From Bermanella sp. (lineage in GTDB: Bacteria; Pseudomonadota; Gammaproteobacteria; Pseudomonadales; Oceanobacteraceae), in assembly GCA_029938135.1 (NCBI GenBank), contig JAPYOO010000012.1:1-42624 (forward strand): a DNA stretch of 42,624 bases, read 5' to 3'. The notes beneath the pieces were generated by a model. The model worked only from the letters and a program-made list of their open reading frames with translations. It was not told the DNA's origin and ran no database searches. Made by a program: the position numbers and the translations under genes. Numbering within the stretch: position 1 is the stretch's first letter; every line of letters starts with the position of its first letter. Of this stretch, positions 3,052 through 36,196 are shown piece after piece.

Positions 3052-3561
3052 AAGATGACAAAATCAAGTGTAAGCCTGGGCATTACCAACCCTAAAAGCC
3101 CGACCAACATGGGTATCGTGATGCGCGCGGCAGGCTGTTTTCAAGTGGATTCTATTTTTTATACCGGTGAACGTTATGCTAAAGCGGCCCGTTTCCATAC
3201 CGATACCCACAAAACCAGTCAAAAAATCCCTTTAACAGGGGTGGATACTTTAGTGGGCTGTGTGCCCAAGCATGTGAAAGTGATATGTGTGGAATTGGTA
3301 GAGGGCGCGATTTCGTTACCTGATTTTGAACACCCTCAAGATGCTATTTATATCTTTGGCCCAGAAGACGGCTCGATTAAACAAGATGTATTGGATCAAG
3401 CGGATGCCGTGGTCTATATTCCGACGGTGGGTTGCTTAAATCTAGCCGCTACTGTGAATGTATTGTTGTATGACCGTTTGGCAAAATCTGAAAACCGTAT
3501 TGGTGGCGACGCGTTAATTCGCAGCAGTCGCGACATAAAAAATAATACCAAAATGGCCTAA
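3052..3561 (+). CDS. TrmH/SpoU-family RNA methyltransferase; start chosen near MTKSSVSLGITNPKSPTNMG (ORF extends upstream to 2968)
   Basis: NPKSPTNMGIVMRAAGCF, IYIFGPEDGSI, VGCLNLAATVNVLLYDR: SPOUT motifs 1-3. Confidence 0.8.
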   Translation, partial: KMTKSSVSLGITNPKSPTNMGIVMRAAGCFQVDSIFYTGERYAKAARFHTDTHKTSQKIPLTGVDTLVGCVPKHVKVICVELVEGAISLPDFEHPQDAIYIFGPEDGSIKQDVLDQADAVVYIPTVGCLNLAATVNVLLYDRLAKSENRIGGDALIRSSRDIKNNTKMA

Positions 3562-3625
3562 AAGAGATCTAAGTATCGATTCATCGCAGCGTTTAAAACG
3601 GTTACTAAAACAAGATCCCGCACGG

Positions 3626-4120
3626 ATGAGGCTATTAAAATTAGTGGCCGCATTAAAGCTGCCCGATGTTTGGGTGGCGGCTGGATTTGTACGTAATATG
3701 GTATGGGATGATCTTCATGATAAGCCCGGTCAACCGCTAAATGATGTGGACGTTTTATTCTTTGACCCCGCGGATATTGAAAACAGGAGCGCGCAAGCCG
3801 CAATGCTTACGTTAGGTGAGTGGGCACCCGAGGTAAATTGGCAGGTAAAAAATCAAGCCTTCATGCATATAAGAAACCAAGATACGCCTTATCAAAGCAG
3901 CTCAGACGCCATGACGTATTGGCCAGAAAAAGAGACAGCAGTGGCGGTGTGTGTGGGTGAAGAAGGACAAATAATAGTGAGTGCGCCCTTTGGTTTAAAC
4001 AGTCTTTTTAGGGGGCATGTTAGCCACAACCCTAAACGGGATAAAAGTGTGTATTTGCAGCGAATAGGCGATAAAAAGTGGTTGTCTATCTGGCCCAAAT
4101 TAAGGTTGATGCATACCTAA
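3626..4120 (+). CDS. Nucleotidyltransferase family protein (COG3575-like)
   Basis: VWVAAGFVRNMVWDDLHD...LNDVDVLFFD; in-frame homologous-looking sequence continues upstream of the first ATG. Confidence 0.75.
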   Translation: MRLLKLVAALKLPDVWVAAGFVRNMVWDDLHDKPGQPLNDVDVLFFDPADIENRSAQAAMLTLGEWAPEVNWQVKNQAFMHIRNQDTPYQSSSDAMTYWPEKETAVAVCVGEEGQIIVSAPFGLNSLFRGHVSHNPKRDKSVYLQRIGDKKWLSIWPKLRLMHT

Positions 4121-4505: not shown

Positions 4506-7500
4506 TTACTTCCCTTCAATCCACTGCTGAAGTTTTTCTTCTAAATGCATGATGTTTAGCGGCTTTGTTAGGTAGTCGTCCATGCCCGAGTCTAAGCACT
4601 TCTCACGATCGCCTTTCATGGCGTTGGCGGTCATGGCAATGATAGCTACGTTTTTATACTGCTTACCGGCAAGTCCCTTACGTATATTGCGGGTGGTTTC
4701 ATAACCGTCCATAACCGGCATTTGGCAATCCATTAAAATAGCCGAATAAGCGGGGTTTTGATTCAGCATATTAATGGCTATCTTGCCATTTTCTGCGGTA
4801 TCTATACTGTAACCAAATTCTTCCATAATGCATTTAGCCACTTCTTGGTTAATAAGATTGTCTTCTACCAATAAAAGTTTTTTAGTGTCGGATTTTAAAG
4901 ACTGTAAATTCGCTTCGGTGACTAGACCGTGGGTTTCTTCAAATGCCTTTCCGTGATCAATTATAATGGCCAAAGCCCGGTGTAAATCCATATTAATAAC
5001 CGGTTTATTAAGAACCCCAGATAAACCCAATATTTTCATTTCACTTGTAGGCATATCAAGCACCAAAGACGTCATGAGTAAAAAATAAGTTTGTTTAAAT
5101 TGTCTTTTTTCTTGCAGTCGCTTTAATAAATATAGGCCGTCTTCGCCTGGCATTTGCATGTCTAGAATAACGACTCGGTACTTATTGTCATCACTTATTA
5201 TTTTGTCCCATGCTGATTTCGGACCAGAGGAAAACTCTACATTGGCACCCCAGGATGTTAAAAGTCCACCAATAACTTCGCAGTTAGTTTGATTGTCGTC
5301 CACCACTAATATAGCGGTGTCATTTAAAGATATATGAGGCAATTCTGTCTGTTGCTGTATATCAGACTTTGGTAAGTCTAGTGCGAACCAAAATTGACTG
5401 CCTTGATCTGTGTTACTTTCAACGCCAATGTCTCCGCCCATTAGATCACACAGTTGCTTGCTAATAGAAAGCCCTAGCCCGGTGCCTCCGTATTCTCGGG
5501 TTGTACTGCCATCAACTTGAGTGAATTTATTAAATAGGTTTTGTATTTTTTCTTGAGGAATACCTATGCCAGAATCTTTTATTTCAAAGTGAATGCGGTC
5601 ATTGTCGGTGGGCTTTACTGTTAAATGTATTTCACCCTTACTGGTAAATTTTAAGGCATTACCACATAAGTTGGTGATAATTTGCCTAAGTCGAGTAGGA
5701 TCGCCGCTGACAATGTTAGGCAGGTTTTTGTCCAGCTCTACAATGTACTCCAAATTTTTTTCATGCACGCGATAAGCAAACGCTTCGGAGAATTCGCTGA
5801 TTAATTTAATTAAATCAAATTCTATGGTTTCCAATTCAAGTTTACCGGCTTCAATTTTAGAAAAATCTAAAATATCATTAATTAAAATGAGTAGTGACTC
5901 GGCGCTGTTATGAGCTAATTGAGCATAGCGCTCTTGTTGAGGATCTTGATCGGTGCGAATCAATAAATTAAGCATGCCCAATACGCCATTCATGGGCGTG
6001 CGAATTTCGTGAGACATGTTGGCTAAAAACTCACTTTTGGCGATGTTGGCTTGATCGGCTTCAATGGCAAGTACCTCTGCTTTAGCCACAGCATCATGAA
6101 GATTGTGCTCGGATATTTTTTTGTGAGTGATGTCAGTTTGAACTTCGATAAGTTCTTTTACATTACCGTCACCATCTTTAATAGCTTGAATATCAATTGA
6201 AACCCAATACTCTTGTCCGTTCTTGTGGTAAACAAGTAACTCTTCGTGCACATCCTCACCTTTGGCGATTTTTTCTGCTAGATATTCGATGGTATCTATA
6301 TCTGAGTTTTTTCCATTTAAAAAATCGGCTAATTTTTTTGTTTTAATCTCTTTAAGATTATAACCGCTGATACGCGTAAAGGCATCATTAACCCATTTTA
6401 TGTGCCCCTGTGGGTCACAAATAATAACGGCATTGTTGGTGCTGCTGGCCACTAAAGCTAATTGTCTAAGTTGGTCCTCATTGTTTTTTTGCTCAGTTTG
6501 ATCCCAATTAACTCCTATTACTCTCTCCACTTCACCCGCCTCGTTGAGGCTCATGCTGGCATGGGCATTTATGTGACGAATGCCTTTTGTTGTGTGGTTG
6601 ATTCTAAAGTCACCAACATAGTTACACTTATTTTCAATTGCTTGATTCAATGAATTTGAGGCAGCCTCAATGTCATCAATATGTACTTTGTCGGACCAAT
6701 CTTGAAGTGAGTGGGTGAAGGTTTCTTTTGCGCTGCCAAAAATACTAAACATTTCATCGTTCCAGTTTAGTTTTTGTTCACTAAGATCAAAGGTCCAAAC
6801 GCCCATATTTACAGATTCAGTGGCGATACTTAAAATTTCATTACTGGCACTCACTTGGTCTCGATATTTGGCCAGTTTCTTTTCGGCTTCTTTTCTTTCG
6901 CAGATGTCGCGTACAAATGCCATGTAACCTATTAAATTATTGTTTTTATCATGAATGGGCCCTCCAACGGTTTCAGATGGAAATAAAGAGTTATCTTTTC
7001 TACGGTAACAAGTTTCAAATATTTTAGCGTTAGAGGTGGTGCTGTCGCTATAGGTGTTCTTGCCAGCATCTTTATAGGCTTCTTCATTCTCATATAAGAA
7101 ATTGGTATTTTTTCCAATGACGTCTTTACTTGCGTAGCCAAACGTTTTACAGAAAGCAGGGTTTACAATTTTAATAATACGTTCGGGCGTGGTGATGATC
7201 ATTGCCTCTGGTGCATCATTAATAATGCCTTCCAATAACCCCTTCTGTTCGATGGACTCTTGCTGAGCCTGATACAACGCGGTCACATCTAAAAGGCAGG
7301 CAATGGTGTAACGGGCCTGATCAACTTCAAATCCAGATAGTGAAAGTTTAACTTTTATGGGCGTACCTTCTCGATTGATGATGTCGATTACCGATTCATG
7401 TTGCGCCAAACTTATCTCAGAGCTGTCAGTATGCACCTTCGTATAGGCTTCAAAAGCGTTATGAAAACTTAATCCGAAAATATTTTTTACTGTTTTCCCT

Positions 7501-29784: not shown

Positions 29785-31209
29785 ATGTTTGAGAACCTTC
29801 AAGACCGCTTGACCGGCGCTTTGCGCTCAATGAGCGGCAAAGCAAAAATTACAGAAGATAATGTTAAGGCTACCCTGCGCGAAGTTCGCATGGCCTTACT
29901 AGAGGCTGATGTAGCCCTGCCTGTGGTGAAAGCCTTTGTAAATCAGGTGAAAGAGCGCGCTGTGGGCAGTGAGGTTTTAAATAGCCTTAGCCCAGGCCAA
30001 GCCTTCCTAAAAATTGTACACAGCGAATTGCAAAGTGTGATGGGTGAGGCCAACGAAGGCCTAGACCTAGCCGCTAAGCCGCCGGCCATTATTCTTATGG
30101 CCGGTTTGCAAGGTGCAGGTAAAACCACCACCGTGGCAAAACTTGCTTTGTATTTGCAAGAGCGCGAAAAGAAAAAAGTAATGGTGGTAAGCGCCGACGT
30201 ATATCGTCCGGCCGCGATCAAGCAGCTAGAAACCCTAGCCAAAGAGGTGGGTGCGCAGTTCTTCCCATCTGATATATCCCAAAAGCCGGTAGACATTGCC
30301 CGCGCCGCTATTAAAGAAGCCAAAACGCAATTCGCTGATGTATTGATCGTTGATACCGCGGGCCGTTTAGCCATTGATGACGCCATGATGGCCGAAATTC
30401 AGCAGCTACATAAAGTGATTGATCCAGTAGAAACCTTGTTTGTGGTTGATGCCATGACAGGTCAGGATGCGGCCAATACCGCTAAGGCATTTAATGAAGC
30501 CTTACCGTTAACCGGTGTGATCCTAACAAAAGCCGATGGTGATGCACGTGGTGGTGCGGCCCTTTCGGTTCGTCACATTACTGGCAAGCCCCTTAAGTTT
30601 ATGGGTATGGGCGAGAAAATCGATGCCCTTGAGCCTTTCCACCCCGACCGTGTAGCGTCACGAATTCTAGATATGGGCGACGTAATGTCGTTGATCGAAG
30701 AAGTTGAACGCAAGGTCGATAAGAAAAAAGCCGAAAAACTTGCCAAGAAAATGCAAAAAGGCAAAGGCTTTGATCTAGAAGATTTCCGTGACCAGCTGCT
30801 GCAAATGAAAAATATGGGCGGCTTAATGGGCATGATGGATAAGCTTCCAGGCATGGGTAAAATGGGCGCGCAAGCGGGCCAAATGGATGTAGCCGAAAAA
30901 CAAATGGGTCAAACCGAAGCGGTTATTAATTCAATGACGCCAATGGAGCGTCGCTTCCCAGATAAAATTAACGGCAGCCGTAAAAAGCGTATCGCCGCGG
31001 GTTCTGGAACCAACATCCAAGAAATTAACCGCGTGCTTAAGCAACATAAGCAAATGCAAAAAATGATGAAAAAAATGTCGGGTAAAGGCGGCATGCGTAA
31101 AATGATGGGCGCTATGCAAGGCATGGGTGGTCAAGGCGGCCCAGGCGGAATGCCAGGCGGCGGTATGCCACCAGGTATGGGTGGCGGTGGCGGCTTTCCC
31201 AAGTTTTAA
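29785..31209 (+). CDS. ffh: Signal recognition particle protein Ffh
   Basis: AGLQGAGKTTTVAKLALYL, DTAGRLAIDD, LTKADGDARGGAALS; Met-rich M domain. Confidence 0.98.
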   Translation: MFENLQDRLTGALRSMSGKAKITEDNVKATLREVRMALLEADVALPVVKAFVNQVKERAVGSEVLNSLSPGQAFLKIVHSELQSVMGEANEGLDLAAKPPAIILMAGLQGAGKTTTVAKLALYLQEREKKKVMVVSADVYRPAAIKQLETLAKEVGAQFFPSDISQKPVDIARAAIKEAKTQFADVLIVDTAGRLAIDDAMMAEIQQLHKVIDPVETLFVVDAMTGQDAANTAKAFNEALPLTGVILTKADGDARGGAALSVRHITGKPLKFMGMGEKIDALEPFHPDRVASRILDMGDVMSLIEEVERKVDKKKAEKLAKKMQKGKGFDLEDFRDQLLQMKNMGGLMGMMDKLPGMGKMGAQAGQMDVAEKQMGQTEAVINSMTPMERRFPDKINGSRKKRIAAGSGTNIQEINRVLKQHKQMQKMMKKMSGKGGMRKMMGAMQGMGGQGGPGGMPGGGMPPGMGGGGGFPKF

Positions 31210-31235: not shown

Positions 31236-31259
31236 AACCGGGCCTAGCCCGGTTTTTTT
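31236..31259 (+). terminator. ffh terminator
   Basis: AACCGGGC-CTA-GCCCGGTTTTTTT. Confidence 0.9.
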
Positions 31260-31442
31260 ATGTTCAGGATGAACGGCAGATTTTTGCTCCATGCAAAATC
31301 GGCATTTCCCACATCCATGTGGGTCGTATAGCGCGGTGGCAGGGTCGTGACAGGGATGTCACTTATCAGGACAATGCATGGAGCAATTGTCTAATGGCAA
31401 AGAGCGTATATGTTCAAGATAAAAGGCAGGTTTCTCCAGTCA
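31259..31442. repeat. Structured intergenic element: 150-bp-period direct repeat flanking nested inverted repeats
   Basis: TATGTTCAgGATgAAcGGCAGaTTT at 31259 and TATGTTCAaGATaAAaGGCAGgTTT at 31409; TTGCTCCATGCA (31284-31295)/TGCATGGAGCAA (31375-31386); inner hairpins CCCACAT-CC-ATGTGGG (31308-31323) and GTGACA-GGGA-TGTCAC (31347-31362). Confidence 0.7.
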
Positions 31443-31480
31443 TGGAATAGACCCCTAATATACGATCCAGTTATTTAATT

Positions 31481-31512
31481 CTTTCGTAGGAGTCGAGCTC
31501 GCTCGCGAACTC
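31481..31512. repeat. REP-like sequence (Pseudomonas-type GTAGGAGC...GCTCGCGAA)
   Basis: ctttcGTAGGAGtCGAGCTcGCTCGCGAActc resembles known Pseudomonas REP consensus; one copy seen here. Confidence 0.4.
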
Positions 31513-31571
31513 AAAGGCCCAATTCAAAACTAAGCTCTTTGATAGTGAATACCTCTAATGGTGAGTAAATC

Positions 31572-31644
31572 TCAGTTAAACCCACCATTCACCAGCCCCG
31601 CTGCGTCCATGCGACAAAGGCTGATGAATGGCAGGCTTAACTGA
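31572..31644 (-). ncRNA. Candidate structured RNA or folded DNA element: 26-bp hairpin, 21-nt loop
   Basis: TCAGTTAAACCCACCATTCACCAGCC ... GGCTGATGAATGGCAGGCTTAACTGA; 22/26 Watson-Crick pairs, and the 4 mismatches are A.C/C.A on + and therefore G.U on -. Confidence 0.45.
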
Positions 31645-31791
31645 TCTTGGCAGAAGCTTGTGATTCCGCTTTATAAGGACATCTGCAAAAGACGAAGCCG
31701 GAAATAGTCGTTTATTTTAGGTTGTCGGTACGCATATCCTGTATTTGAGGCCACAGCTGAAGGCTTCGTATTTAGAGGGCTGTAGGAATGT

Positions 31792-31965
31792 ATGCACAAG
31801 GCTGTAGAGTTATGCGGCTTTGACCGTGGTTATCAATTGTTTTTTGAAAATGAGGTGTTATGGTTGTGCCAATTAATATTAAAAAGTAATGAAGCGGCGA
31901 TGGAAATGCTGTGTAAGTGTTTGAGCGTAAAGGGAAAATACGTACCCGCCCAATGCCGCATATAA
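31792..31965 (+). CDS. Small hypothetical protein (57 aa), below the ORF-track cutoff
   Basis: MHKAVELCGFDRGYQLFFENEVLWLCQLILKSNEAAMEMLCKCLSVKGKYVPAQCRI; aggaatgt upstream. Confidence 0.35.
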   Translation: MHKAVELCGFDRGYQLFFENEVLWLCQLILKSNEAAMEMLCKCLSVKGKYVPAQCRI

Positions 31966-32025
31966 ATTCTTATCAGCACTCAAGCCGCATAACTGAACTG
32001 TTATGGATCATAAAAAGGAAAATTA

Positions 32026-32559
32026 ATGCATATTATAATTGGAATTATCACAGCCATCGCTGGCTTTTTTTGGGCATTACATAGCTTGCAAAACGCTGGT
32101 GTGGATCTTAATGCCTTTAACCCATTTACTTGGGCTCGTCGAAGAAAGTGGGAAAAACAATTAGGAACTAAGCCGCGACATACACTTACCAACTCAATGG
32201 ATGCAGCTGCACTTTTAGTTGTGGCAATTTCAAAGCAAGATGGTGAGATTACTAGAGAAACAAAACTTGAAGTATTATCCATTTTTGAATCTGAATTTGG
32301 CGTATCTAGAAGTAAAGCAATCGAAATGTTTTCTTCTTCAACATATCTGCTTAATGATGTTGTTGATATGATCTCTGAGGTTAAACCAGTATTAGAACCT
32401 AGTAAAAGCGAATTTCAGGTAAGTCATACGAATAAATTGGTAAAAATGCTAATTAAAGTAGCAAATATTGAAACTGGTATTTCTATAAACCAAGATAAAA
32501 TAATTCAAGGAGTAAAGGAAACCTTACTAATTACAGAGAAGAAGGCTTCGAACTGGTAA
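32026..32559 (+). CDS. TerB-like membrane-anchored protein (cassette gene)
   Basis: 177 aa; N-terminal TM, AAALLVVAISKQDGEITRETKLEVLSIFESEFGVS...LIKVANIETGISINQDKIIQGVKETL; followed 1 nt later by an attC-like site. Confidence 0.6.
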   Translation: MHIIIGIITAIAGFFWALHSLQNAGVDLNAFNPFTWARRRKWEKQLGTKPRHTLTNSMDAAALLVVAISKQDGEITRETKLEVLSIFESEFGVSRSKAIEMFSSSTYLLNDVVDMISEVKPVLEPSKSEFQVSHTNKLVKMLIKVANIETGISINQDKIIQGVKETLLITEKKASNW

Positions 32560-32560
32560 G

Positions 32561-32662
32561 CCATAACAAACGCATCATGATCGCAGCCTTTGGCTGCTGG
32601 GACGGTTTACACTTCGTTCGTTCCTCGCTGCGTTTCAACCGCCCCATATGCAGGCGTTATGC
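32561..32662 (+). repeat. attC-like integron recombination site (site A)
   Basis: cCATAACAAACGC...GCGTTATGc: CATAAC (562-567) pairs with GTTATG (656-661); inner GGGaCGGTT/AACCGcCCC stem and GCAGCC-TTT-GGCTGC hairpin. Confidence 0.85.
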
Positions 32663-32678
32663 ATAAAAATGATGATTA

Positions 32679-33223
32679 ATGGCCCCGCTTACGCCTCAAC
32701 TTGAATTAGCAATAAAAGACGAGTTAGGAACGGCTGAAATACTTAAATGGACTGAGCAGCCAATACCTTATAATACGATGGTTACTGCTTTTAGTTTATG
32801 GTTTATTGCTGTTCCATGGAGTGCTTTTTCTTACTTTTGGATTCAGGCTGCAATTGAAGAAGCAGAGCTAGGTAGTTTTTTCCTTACTTTGGTCTGCCTT
32901 TTTTTATTGTAGGGATATGTATGCTGCTATCTCCTTTTTGGAGATATTTTGAAGCAACTAGAACTGTATATGCGATAACTAATAAGAGAGCATTTACTCT
33001 TGGAATGGCTAATCGTATTGAAGTTAGAAATTATTTTCCAAATAGTATTGGTAACTTTAAAAAAATTGTTAAAAGTGACGGTGTAGGTGACTTAATTCTA
33101 GGTTTTGAACATTACAAAGATGCGGAAGGAGATAAGCAAATAAAAGAATATGGATTTTTCGCTGTAAATAAAATAAATGAAGTTGAAAAACTTATAGAAA
33201 ATTTAATTGAAATAAATACATAA
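32679..33223 (+). pseudogene. PH-domain-like membrane protein split by a -1 frameshift (32679-32912 + frame of 32921-33223); pseudogene, sequencing error or programmed frameshift
   Basis: LTLVCLF(F/L)IVGICMLLSPFWRYFEATRTVYAITNKRAFTL is rebuilt by a shift at a 7-T run; heptamer T_TTT_TTA at 32900-32906 is in the zero frame. Confidence 0.65.
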
Positions 33224-33300
33224 CAAAGCAAAGTACATTCGCACAGTAATCTGTGCTGGACTTGCTCATTCTTCGCTCGTCTGTGCTTGCGGCGTTGAGT
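33218..33300 (+). repeat. attC-like integron recombination site (site B)
   Basis: aCATAACAAAGC...GGCGTTGAGT; GTTGAGT fits GTTRRRY; GCAAAGTACA/TGTGCTTGC imperfect stem with bulge; inner GCACAG-TAAT-CTGTGC. Confidence 0.75.
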
Positions 33301-33333
33301 AAATTATATCGTCAAATATTAATGAGGTTAACG

Positions 33334-33879
33334 ATGAGAAATGTACTAGTGTGTTTTTTGTTAATAATATTGTCGTTTCAAGCAAGAGCAGAAGTAACTT
33401 CGACGGAGTTATTCAGTATTATTAACGACCGTCTAAGCTATATGAAAGACGTCGCTTTATTCAAAGCACAAAATCATCGCCCTATCGAAGATATTGATCG
33501 AGAAAAAATTGTTATAGATAACGCTAAAATGTCTGCACATAAAAGGGGTCTTGATCCAGTCCATGTCGAAGATTTCTATAAGGCACAAATCTCTGTCGCA
33601 AAGGCAATTCAGTACCGGTATCGCGCAGATTTACTTTCTCAATCCTCTTTTCAAAAGCCAAAAGATCTTCAGAAGGAGGTGCGTCCTGCCTTGCTTCGCT
33701 TAGGTGATCAAATTATTCAGAAAATGATGATGTACATTGAAATCTATGGCTCATTTAAATCAACAAAGTTTGATGAGTTTGATGCAGCCATTACTGTAAA
33801 ATACGTTACAGCTTCTGATAAGCAACTTATATTTAATGCTTTGCAAAAAATTAAACCAATGCCAAAAAAAGTAATTTAA
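33334..33879 (+). CDS. Secreted gamma-class chorismate mutase (AroQ-gamma/PheA2-like), cassette gene
   Basis: Signal peptide MRNVLVCFLLIILSFQARA; RLSYMKDVALFKAQNHRPIEDIDREKIVIDNA...GLDPVHVEDFYKAQISVAKAIQYRYRADLL. Confidence 0.8.
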   Translation: MRNVLVCFLLIILSFQARAEVTSTELFSIINDRLSYMKDVALFKAQNHRPIEDIDREKIVIDNAKMSAHKRGLDPVHVEDFYKAQISVAKAIQYRYRADLLSQSSFQKPKDLQKEVRPALLRLGDQIIQKMMMYIEIYGSFKSTKFDEFDAAITVKYVTASDKQLIFNALQKIKPMPKKVI

Positions 33880-33967
33880 CAAGTTACTGAGCAGCGAGCT
33901 ATATTCCGTATCTGAAGGCTCCCCCTAAAAGTAGACACCTATAATTAGCATAAGGTAGGTGTTAAAT
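33874..33967 (+). repeat. Possible degenerate attC (site C) or attC left half with mobile-element debris
   Basis: ATTTAAC (fits RYYYAAC) over the stop codon, and its exact reverse complement GTTAAAT (fits GTTRRRY) 80 nt downstream; central arms pair poorly. Confidence 0.35.
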
Positions 33968-34058
33968 GGCGAAAATACTCTGTGAAGAGCGCGTAGTAGA
34001 GCGCACACAAAATCGAATCAATCAGAAATAACCCATACTTAAGAACTTGAGGTTTAAA

Positions 34059-34931
34059 ACGATGAAAAAAAATGCCCTTATTTTGTTAGCAGCTACGGCA
34101 CTATTTCCTGTTGGCGCCAGTGCTGAAAGCAATCAATCCATTGTTCATGGTCAGGTTTCTGATCAGGTTATTGCGAAGCAGCGTGAGATGCTGAAAAAAA
34201 ATACCAAGGTTAAAGGGTTTGGCCCGCAGTCGCCACGTGATATCGACTTAAGCATTGGTAGTAATAGTCGTATATTTAGTGCGGCGCCCGCTTATACACA
34301 GATGAATCTATGTAATATTCATTTTCACAAAAATGCCGAGCATAAGGGTGGCGAGTTTACGCGTTATGCAGGCAATGGTGATGGCCACGGATATCAAAGT
34401 GGTTACCGATATTCAGGTCATTTAACTGCAGAAGAACAAGCACCTGTCGACACAGATATATGCCCAAGCAAACACGGTAGTCTTTTACCGGGGGATACCA
34501 TTGAAGTTCACTACGTTCACTCAACCGCTCAGATTAAACCCGGCCCAACTTTGGGTTCTTGTTTAAGTGACTCGATAAAAAATCCGCAATTGCGCGTAGA
34601 GACTCAAGTCTATGTCTTGGTTAACGACTCAAGTGCACAAGACTTCGGTGAATTGACCAAGCATGATTTGCAAAATGATCTACATCAGGCATCAAACATA
34701 CCTAAAAATACGGGCACGCCTATACAGTACGCAGGCTCCACTACGGGTCCTGGTTACAACGAAAGCGGCTCACCATTCCAGGTAACATGGAGTGTTCGCC
34801 CTAAAGTCGCCAAGGTTAATATTGAGACGGTAGGCGAATGGTGCAAAGGCAATACATTTAATGAAGATCATGCCCATGGAGTGCGAAACCTTGTTACTAA
34901 CCCCGATCTTCTGTCAAAAATTGACGGATAG
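34059..34931 (+). CDS. Delta-class carbonic anhydrase, exported (cassette gene); start may be 34047
   Basis: Signal MKKNALILLAATALFPVGASA; NLCNIHFHKNAEHKGGEFTRYAGNGDGHGYQSGYRYSG...PGDTIEVHYVHSTAQIKPGPTLGSCLS. Confidence 0.8.
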   Translation, partial: TMKKNALILLAATALFPVGASAESNQSIVHGQVSDQVIAKQREMLKKNTKVKGFGPQSPRDIDLSIGSNSRIFSAAPAYTQMNLCNIHFHKNAEHKGGEFTRYAGNGDGHGYQSGYRYSGHLTAEEQAPVDTDICPSKHGSLLPGDTIEVHYVHSTAQIKPGPTLGSCLSDSIKNPQLRVETQVYVLVNDSSAQDFGELTKHDLQNDLHQASNIPKNTGTPIQYAGSTTGPGYNESGSPFQVTWSVRPKVAKVNIETVGEWCKGNTFNEDHAHGVRNLVTNPDLLSKIDG

Positions 34932-34947
34932 TTTTAACAGCAACAAT

Positions 34948-35005
34948 CGTTAACAAAAAGCGCAAGCGGTCGCTGAAAAGCATGCCGTTTAGCTTGGTGT
35001 TAATT
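34948..35005 (+). repeat. Short attC-like integron recombination site (site D, ~58 bp)
   Basis: TTAAC/GTTAA outer, AAGC/GCTT, then AA(G)CGG/CCGTT with an extrahelical G at 34966. Confidence 0.8.
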
Positions 35006-35086
35006 TTGATGGCATAAGGCGGTAGTCTTTAAACGTAATTATCTAATTGGTATATTTAGCATGCGCAAAATTCAAGAGATAGCATT

Positions 35087-35644
35087 GTGAAAATAAACAT
35101 TCGTAAGTTTAAAGAAGGTGATGCACAAAAATTCCAAGAAGCGGTATTGGAATCCGTTGAACACCTTTCAATGTGGCTACCTTGGTGTACACCAAATTAC
35201 AGTATTGAAGATGCTAGTGAATGGGTAGCGTCGGCTGCTGATACTTGGCAAGCCGGAACGGATTACCGCTTTGTTATCGAAGACGCTAAAACACTTAAAA
35301 TTTTAGGCTGTGTCGGAATCAATCAGGTTGTGCCTCAACACAAAGTTGGGAACCTTGGATACTGGGTAAGAAAATCTGCACTGAATCAGGGTGTGTGTAC
35401 TCAAGCGGCTCGCCAAGTCGCTGCATTCGCGTTTGAGCAACTCGGATTTAAGCGGTTGGAGATTCATGTGCTAACTGACAATGACGCTAGCAATGGGGCC
35501 GCGTCCAAGTTAGGTGGGGAATACGAAGGCGTTTTCCGCAATAAATTATTATTTAATGATAAATCCCTACCAGCAAAATGTTATTCGATTGTTCCGGCTG
35601 ACTATGAAGTGAAAGTGTCTACGGTGACTAGTATTTACCAATAG
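35087..35644 (+). CDS. GNAT-family N-acetyltransferase (RimJ/RimL-like), GTG start
   Basis: 185 aa; VGNLGYWVRKSALNQGVCTQAARQVAAFAFEQLGFKRLEIHVLTDNDASNGAASKLGGEYEGVFRN. Confidence 0.88.
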   Translation: MKINIRKFKEGDAQKFQEAVLESVEHLSMWLPWCTPNYSIEDASEWVASAADTWQAGTDYRFVIEDAKTLKILGCVGINQVVPQHKVGNLGYWVRKSALNQGVCTQAARQVAAFAFEQLGFKRLEIHVLTDNDASNGAASKLGGEYEGVFRNKLLFNDKSLPAKCYSIVPADYEVKVSTVTSIYQ

Positions 35645-35938
35645 CCACGCTATTTGTATTATCTGAGTCAATGGTGTCGGAGCGATTGATTTTCTGCGTA
35701 AATAACAATGTGGTCGCTGTATGTATTCAGTAAAAAAAGCTGCGCTAGTCAAAAATGTCCAGTCTACAGCGCCCGAATTACCTTGAAACCCTCTTAAATA
35801 CACGGCTAAGCGGCCTTCCATTCCCTGTTCAAACCCTATACAATACGCGCCCAATATCCGCCATCTGTCTTTTTGACAGTTGGTAAACAAATGGCAAGTC
35901 ATATTAACGCTTGCCCACAACGAAGAAGGTTCCGTCGT

Positions 35939-36196
35939 ATGGTAGTTATCCGTTTAGCTCGTAGTGGTTCTAAGAAAAAGCCGTTTTATCACCTTTCTGT
36001 AGCTGACCAGCGTTTTCCACGTGACGGTCGTTTCATCGAGCGTGTAGGTTTCTTTAACCCTGTTGCTCGTGGCGCTGAAGAAGCTCTTCGTGTAGATCAA
36101 GAACGCGTTGAATACTGGATGAGCAAAGGCGCTCAGCCAAGTGCACGTGTTGCTAAGCTTCTTAAAGATGCTAAGAAAGCACAAGTAGCTGCATAA
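35939..36196 (+). CDS. rpsP: 30S ribosomal protein S16
   Basis: [41 protein letters not shown]; listed ORF start 35873 is too far upstream. Confidence 0.97.

Follow-up and report, generated by a model that had tools for sequence, protein, structure and literature searches.

A predicted attI-headed cassette array without its own integrase gene between ffh and rpsP in Bermanella

Between ffh, which ends at position 31209, and rpsP, which starts at 35939, the 42,624-nucleotide stretch of Bermanella sp. DNA analysed here (contig JAPYOO010000012.1 of assembly GCA_029938135.1, forward strand; hereafter the window, and contig C546 of genome G000 in our numbering) carries a gap of 4,729 bp. Two congeners that share this gene order have gaps of only 229 bp (G008) and 270 bp (G002), which makes the segment, by sequence comparison, accessory – as an earlier note, made from the sequence of this stretch alone, had claimed. 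In a further congener, G004, the gap is 1,387 bp and is occupied by a different gene; similarity to the short-gap congeners picks up again near 35815. The window contig is unbroken from ffh to rpsP–rimM–trmD–rplS and belongs to an assembly of 4.73 Mb that is 90% complete, with 3.6% contamination. We propose, with a probability of roughly 0.8, that the segment is an integron platform lacking an integrase gene (intI), that it consists of an attI site followed by two cassettes with their attC sites (A and B), and that it is one of several such arrays dispersed in the genome. The features on which this reading turns, together with a third attC-like site, are as follows.

31772–32005, plus strand: predicted attI copy without intI, a 234-bp unit with a conserved attI core at about 31914–32005
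31988–32006, plus strand: L/R simple site, GCATAAC-TGAACT-GTTATGG, with crossover expected after the G at 32000
32001–32656, plus strand: cassette 1, 656 bp, from the GTTATGG of attI to the GTTATGC of attC A
32026–32559, plus strand: cassette 1 gene, encoding a weakly TerB-like protein of 177 amino acids (Pfam TerB, E 2.2e-4, below cut-off)
32561–32662, plus strand: attC A, 102 bp, strong; both covariance models, arm pairing and homology
32657–33294, plus strand: cassette 2, 638 bp, from the GTT box of attC A to that of attC B
32679–33223, plus strand: cassette 2 gene, encoding a membrane-associated protein, its frame broken near 32899–32915
33218–33300, plus strand: attC B, 83 bp, good; both covariance models, arm pairing and homology
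34948–35005, plus strand: attC-like site D, 58 bp, weak; first covariance model only, without a match to the second

The attC sites were sought with a covariance model built from attCs outside the window (those of intI-linked arrays of relatives and of other contigs of the same genome; R1), with a retrained model based on 85 attCs from arrays (R2), and with a position weight matrix combined with an arm-pairing score, which was trained on array attCs and superseded arm-pairing scans whose box spacing had missed site A. On the scale of this combined score, the training sites range from 22.5 to 45, while shuffled DNA (0.85 Mb) yields nothing at 25 or above and about 13 hits per Mb above 16. On the window, R1 gave three matches at E <0.05, all on the plus strand and all within the ffh–rpsP segment; a run with the filters off failed to recover the long sites A and B. 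Site A reached 28.9 bits with R1 (E 2.8e-5), 43.6 bits with R2 and a combined score of 35.3, and site B 19.0 bits (E 0.013), 22.3 bits and 34.2, respectively. Homology points the same way: 81% identity across 84 nt links A to an attC next to an intI in a relative (G014), and B is 88% identical over 81 nt to an attC in the intI array of the congener G005, besides being similar to an attC on another contig of its own genome (C178). On its bottom strand, A has the complete R''/R' and L''/L' pairing layout with one unpaired (extrahelical) base, and the arms of B pair with one mismatch and one wobble. Both are also among the 13 attCs, spread across 7 contigs, that R2 finds genome-wide at E ≤1. Judged by these scores, A and B are genuine attCs.

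Site D stands apart. Its R1 match of 17.7 bits (E 0.028) was the third-best, R2 did not recover it at E ≤5, and its combined score of 16.8 is one for which chance alone provides about 0.5 hits per window strand; it is possibly a decayed attC. The earlier note had listed all three as attC-like sites and had proposed covariance models as the check, which A and B pass with either model and D with one of them. It was right that each lies just 3' of a same-strand gene – A starts 2 nt past the stop of the TerB-like gene, B overlaps the stop of its own gene and D follows the carbonic anhydrase stop by 17 nt – and its one-gene cassettes of about 0.65 and 0.64 kb correspond to the 656 and 638 bp measured from the GTT boxes. 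No Rfam family matched at the gathering threshold. A degenerate IUPAC pattern (R''–L''…R') run over the genome was dropped, having returned 15 matches against 8 for its reversed control, none of them attC-like.

No attC lies to the left of the start of the first cassette, marked by the GTTATGG at 32000; the sequence found there is the end of the 234-bp unit, whose 3'-most 95 bp or so match the intI-adjacent attI of two congeners, G002 and G008, with identities of 61/98 and 56/98. A sequence-only model built from the 234-bp repeat (R3) has matches at two places in G002, directly upstream of a complete intI (C6:224440–225369) and of a truncated duplicate of intI, and the match ends CCGAATAAC-CAAATT-GTTATG at the first cassette, in the same L–N6–R layout as in the window. 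A homologous core also lies upstream of intI on contig C214 of G008, and what the window shares with the attI position of these two intI loci includes CCGxATAAC-N6-GTTA, in the right orientation. The window element has the layout that defines an attI, namely inverted L and R boxes, a short spacer and a crossover point at GTT. Because its position relative to intI in the congeners, its orientation and its L/R layout all match, we predict that the element at 31772–32005 is an attI. By eye, GCCGCATA occurs in it twice, which may be compared with DR1 and DR2, the upstream direct repeats of attI1. We rejected a reading of the repeat as a gene-less cassette (from a GTTATGC at 31811 to 32000), since homology continues leftwards as far as 31772, and the copies on contigs C170 and C307 do not conserve the left GTTATGC. 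A degenerate pattern of the attI repeat had no match in our genome-contig collection, which leaves its spread beyond the genus unproven.

The window contig has no match to Phage_integrase (PF00589) or TIGR02249, in agreement with the earlier note, which had seen no tyrosine recombinase in the window and had suggested an integrase encoded elsewhere. Such a gene is present: contig C520 of the same genome carries a complete intI (TIGR02249, 378 bits against a cut-off of 265), the 324-residue product of which matches VchIntIA (PDB 2a3v) end to end at 3e-79 and, in the alignment to 2a3v, has the catalytic residues R, K, HxxR, H and Y in place. A second, partial IntI, comprising the C-terminal part, lies at the end of contig C492.

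Neither the attI copy nor its association with cassettes is confined to this locus. By blastn, the 234-bp repeat occurs at least five times in the genome, in the window and on contigs C170, C252, C307 and C626. All five copies stop at the same nucleotide, with unrelated DNA beyond; the best preserved contain CATAAC-N6-GTTATG, and the cassette junction falls at GTT except in C626, where it is GTC. The copies in the window and on C252 and C170 (the last degenerate) head attCs. The pattern recurs in G005, a near-complete congener (99% complete, two contigs) with one intI above the NCBIfam cut-off, where R3 finds six full attI copies, at 1.24, 1.48, 1.76, 1.99, 2.31 and 3.19 Mb. Five of the six are followed by a same-strand attC that starts 336–889 bp downstream (P about 3e-11 under random placement), and the five clusters that they lead hold 20 of the 33 attCs in this genome, the intI-linked array holding 9 and a cluster without a recognised attI the other 4. 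Dispersed and intI-linked arrays have similar attCs, and one on contig C178 (C178a) is 97.5% identical to an attC of the G005 intI array.

Several further arrangements in relatives deserve a mention. The four remaining G005 attCs (G005:C1:2639615–2646048), with neither intI nor a recognised attI copy, form a plain cluster of attC sites lacking an integrase (CALIN). In the left flanks of two G005 attI copies (loci L141 and L145), a degenerate second attI tail of 36 bp, 75–78% identical, lies about 75 bp upstream, as though direct repeats resembling attI flanked the unit, and a weaker second tail lies beside the copy at L146. Within a single G002 array (contig C6, L024), positions 3340–3760 and 6200–6620 are near-identical duplicates of an intI 5' end with its attI, a possible intermediate in the spread of attI; on another contig of the same genome – a third species – two attI-like copies without intI (C22, L148, 2028–2183 and 4004–4172) have one attC between them. 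In another genus, three attCs of G016 (L115, 4312–5469, minus strand) lie next to large recombinase-like genes, some 4 kb upstream of rpsP; one of the cassette genes resembles, by eye, a nucleotidyltransferase of the aminoglycoside-modifying type. A search of this cluster showed one attC-like match shared with the intI region of G016 and no attI copy.

By analogy with known integrons, and if the window attI is functional, an IntI encoded elsewhere in the genome would act on it in trans. It would recombine an attC, in the form of its folded bottom strand, with the ectopic attI as double-stranded DNA, the crossover falling after the G of GTTATG, and new cassettes would land first in line at 32000, as they do at the primary integron. 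The sequence supports past cassette insertion at this site; present activity, action in trans, the cognate integrase and expression from the attI region are inferred. One possible route by which attI might spread is duplication of a block containing the intI 5' end and attI with later loss of intI, since G002 carries just such a duplicate. More tentatively, and with slightly less than even confidence, we suggest from the sequence pattern that the genus may run a distributed integron, in which a short attI unit has been copied to many loci, each copy an independent platform for capture and expression served by one integrase in trans; several arrays in parallel, and not one linear array, would then share the cassettes.

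Some observations weigh against such a platform. The genome is fragmented into 687 contigs, and on C520 only 4 bp precede the intI start codon, so that the intI-linked attI lies beyond the contig. Nothing at the intI-linked attI of G002 corresponds to the first, upstream 140 bp of the repeat, and the intI genes of G002 and of G008 C214 are only about 40% identical to that of C520. In G005, the region upstream of the single intI carries an IS110-family element, with no recognisable attI of this repeat family, which together with the 40% identity leaves the cognate integrase of the dispersed attI copies uncertain. Finally, some copies are without an array: neither C307 nor the G005 copy at 1762k has an attC, and C626 has none that is clear. 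Two observations on these contigs may be added. In G005 (L026), the IS110-family transposase gene adjoins a GTTATGC box and separates intI from the first cassette; its element has perhaps inserted in the primary attI. Moreover, only 3 bp of C252 precede its attI, and as this contig end abuts attI while that of C520 abuts intI (4 bp), the two may be neighbours, and C252 may be the primary integron.

The same data bear on four other explanations. A complete integron could have inserted at ffh–rpsP with subsequent loss of intI on the spot, and the remaining attI copies could have the same history at their own loci. In-place loss is among the proposed origins of CALINs (PMC8618304), and the duplicated truncated intI with attI in the G002 array shows that intI decay beside attI occurs; yet tblastn with 13 intI proteins finds no intI or intI remnant next to any ectopic attI copy of G000 or G005, and the left border that the copies of both species have in common, about 220–235 bp from the crossover, suggests the copying of a discrete unit and not many independent deletions. 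We consider this account unlikely, though not negligible. That the 234-bp element is an unrelated repeat resembling a miniature inverted-repeat transposable element, and a hot spot for cassette insertion by chance, would fit its discrete form, its sharp left border and the copies that have no cassettes, but its core matches the attI position at two intI loci in the right orientation, and we find the idea improbable.

A shade more improbable still is an ordinary CALIN, created when IntI inserted cassettes into a non-classical attG site in the ffh–rpsP spacer without any attI. Both CALINs (PMC8618304) and insertion at attG (PMC12444791) are known, and the attCs here do lack an intI. Insertion at attG would nonetheless place the left junction outside attI or attC DNA, whereas the junction found, rather than lying at an arbitrary GTN, coincides with the end of a multi-copy homologue of intI-linked attI, other copies of which head arrays too. 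An artefact of draft or chimeric metagenome assembly, for which the 687 contigs and 3.6% contamination might speak, deserves very little credence: the window contig runs unbroken from ffh to rplS, and G005, assembled in two contigs, shows the combination of attI and array five times. An intI-less platform headed by its own attI copy remains our preferred reading.

The remainder of the segment and its left margin contain the following features.

31250–31412, plus strand: dispersed palindromic repeat directly 3' of the ffh terminator, found by blastn against the genome itself
33253–33879, plus strand: gene for an AroQ-gamma (periplasmic-type) chorismate mutase, with a likely start at about 33334 (NCBIfam NF005965, 182.7 bits, over cut-off)
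34047–34931, plus strand: gene for a delta-class carbonic anhydrase (Pfam PF10563, 279.7 bits)
35087–35644, plus strand: gene for a GNAT acetyltransferase, RimL-like (Pfam PF13302, 86.4 bits), with no attC 3' of the gene

The names that the earlier note gave to these genes and to those of the cassettes fared unevenly. Chorismate mutase and delta-carbonic anhydrase are borne out by the family scores above, and TerB-like stands only as a weak resemblance, the match of 22.0 bits falling under the Pfam cut-off of 24.4; among 76 relatives, the cassette 1 protein has a single, distant homologue. For the 'PH-like' cassette 2 protein, Pfam returned no family. Its gene consists of two open reading frames in different frames (32679–32912 and 32921–33223), with the break in a run of seven T; this may reflect decay, sequencing error or slippage.

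Chorismate mutase and carbonic anhydrase, listed by the earlier note as further cassettes, are not shown to be such. Since the chorismate mutase and GNAT genes have no convincing attC at their 3' ends – a candidate decayed site at 33874–33967, after the former, has an arm-pairing score of only 13.4 – and site D is weak, the cassette status of all three genes is unproven; they may be cassettes that have eroded, or insertions unrelated to the array. All three are accessory: a search of nine congeners found neither the chorismate mutase nor the carbonic anhydrase, and none of the regions upstream of rpsP fetched from relatives contains a homologue of the GNAT gene. As a check for a native position upstream of rpsP, G010 has a carbonic anhydrase gene 2.6 kb upstream of rpsP, with other genes intervening. 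The spacer between the chorismate mutase and carbonic anhydrase genes (33917–34040) resembles, by eye, an insertion-sequence end with a truncated start (MAKILCEERVVER...). Further left, the 31250–31412 repeat, partial or full copies of which lie on contigs C128, C36 (two), C226, C591, C119, C229 and C21, is probably not part of the integron. A long hairpin, TCAGTTAAACCCACCATTCACCAGCC...GGCTGATGAATGGCAGGCTTAACTGA, occupies 31570–31650, and a portion of it recurs next to the attI copy on C170.

Set against known systems, the segment shares with CALINs (PMC9024848, PMC8618304) at least two attCs in one orientation with one gene each – here A and B, with D weak – and an integrase that is not nearby but elsewhere in the genome. 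To this extent the CALIN-like cluster of the earlier note stands; it is no bare set of attCs, since a recognisable attI copy that recurs at other loci heads the array, whereas CALINs are defined from attCs alone. The further description of the cluster as a relic is not demonstrated: attC A looks intact, and so do the L and R boxes of attI. CALINs and complete integrons are of similar abundance (PMC9024848), and three origins of the former – off-target insertion, intI loss and rearrangement – are under debate (PMC8618304). With most clusters of the near-complete G005 chromosome headed by attI, a fourth may be added, the spread of attI itself. Outside class 1, attI escapes detection by IntegronFinder (PMC9024848), and because of this blind spot in standard software, attI-led platforms without intI may be widely mislabelled as CALINs.

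In the open-access full-text literature, we found nothing equivalent on multiple, dispersed or orphan attI sites, and the closest parallels each differ in some respect. The CALINs of Xanthomonas, which occupy seven fixed loci other than ilvD, are likewise cassette clusters apart from the intI locus, but the consulted passages of that account (PMC12444791) do not mention attI copies, which head five of the six G005 clusters outside the intI locus. The attG sites of Loot et al. (2024), as summarised there, also allow cassette insertion outside the primary integron, yet are non-classical and not attI-like, unlike the left site of the window. In the delta-attI-type cassettes of mobile integrons (PMC12901181), attI similarly moves away from intI and is still recombined by IntI1; there, however, it lies 3' of the gene in place of attC, whereas the window attI precedes the first cassette, on its 5' side, at a locus of its own. 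Were the dispersed platforms active, one integrase would feed several first positions, several cassettes would be first in line at once, and models of integron expression and shuffling would change. The resemblance to a sedentary chromosomal integron (intI–attI–attC array) lies in the attI that heads the cassettes and in GTT boundaries that fit attI × attC insertion; the difference is that no intI adjoins the window attI and that the chromosome carries several platforms, not one.

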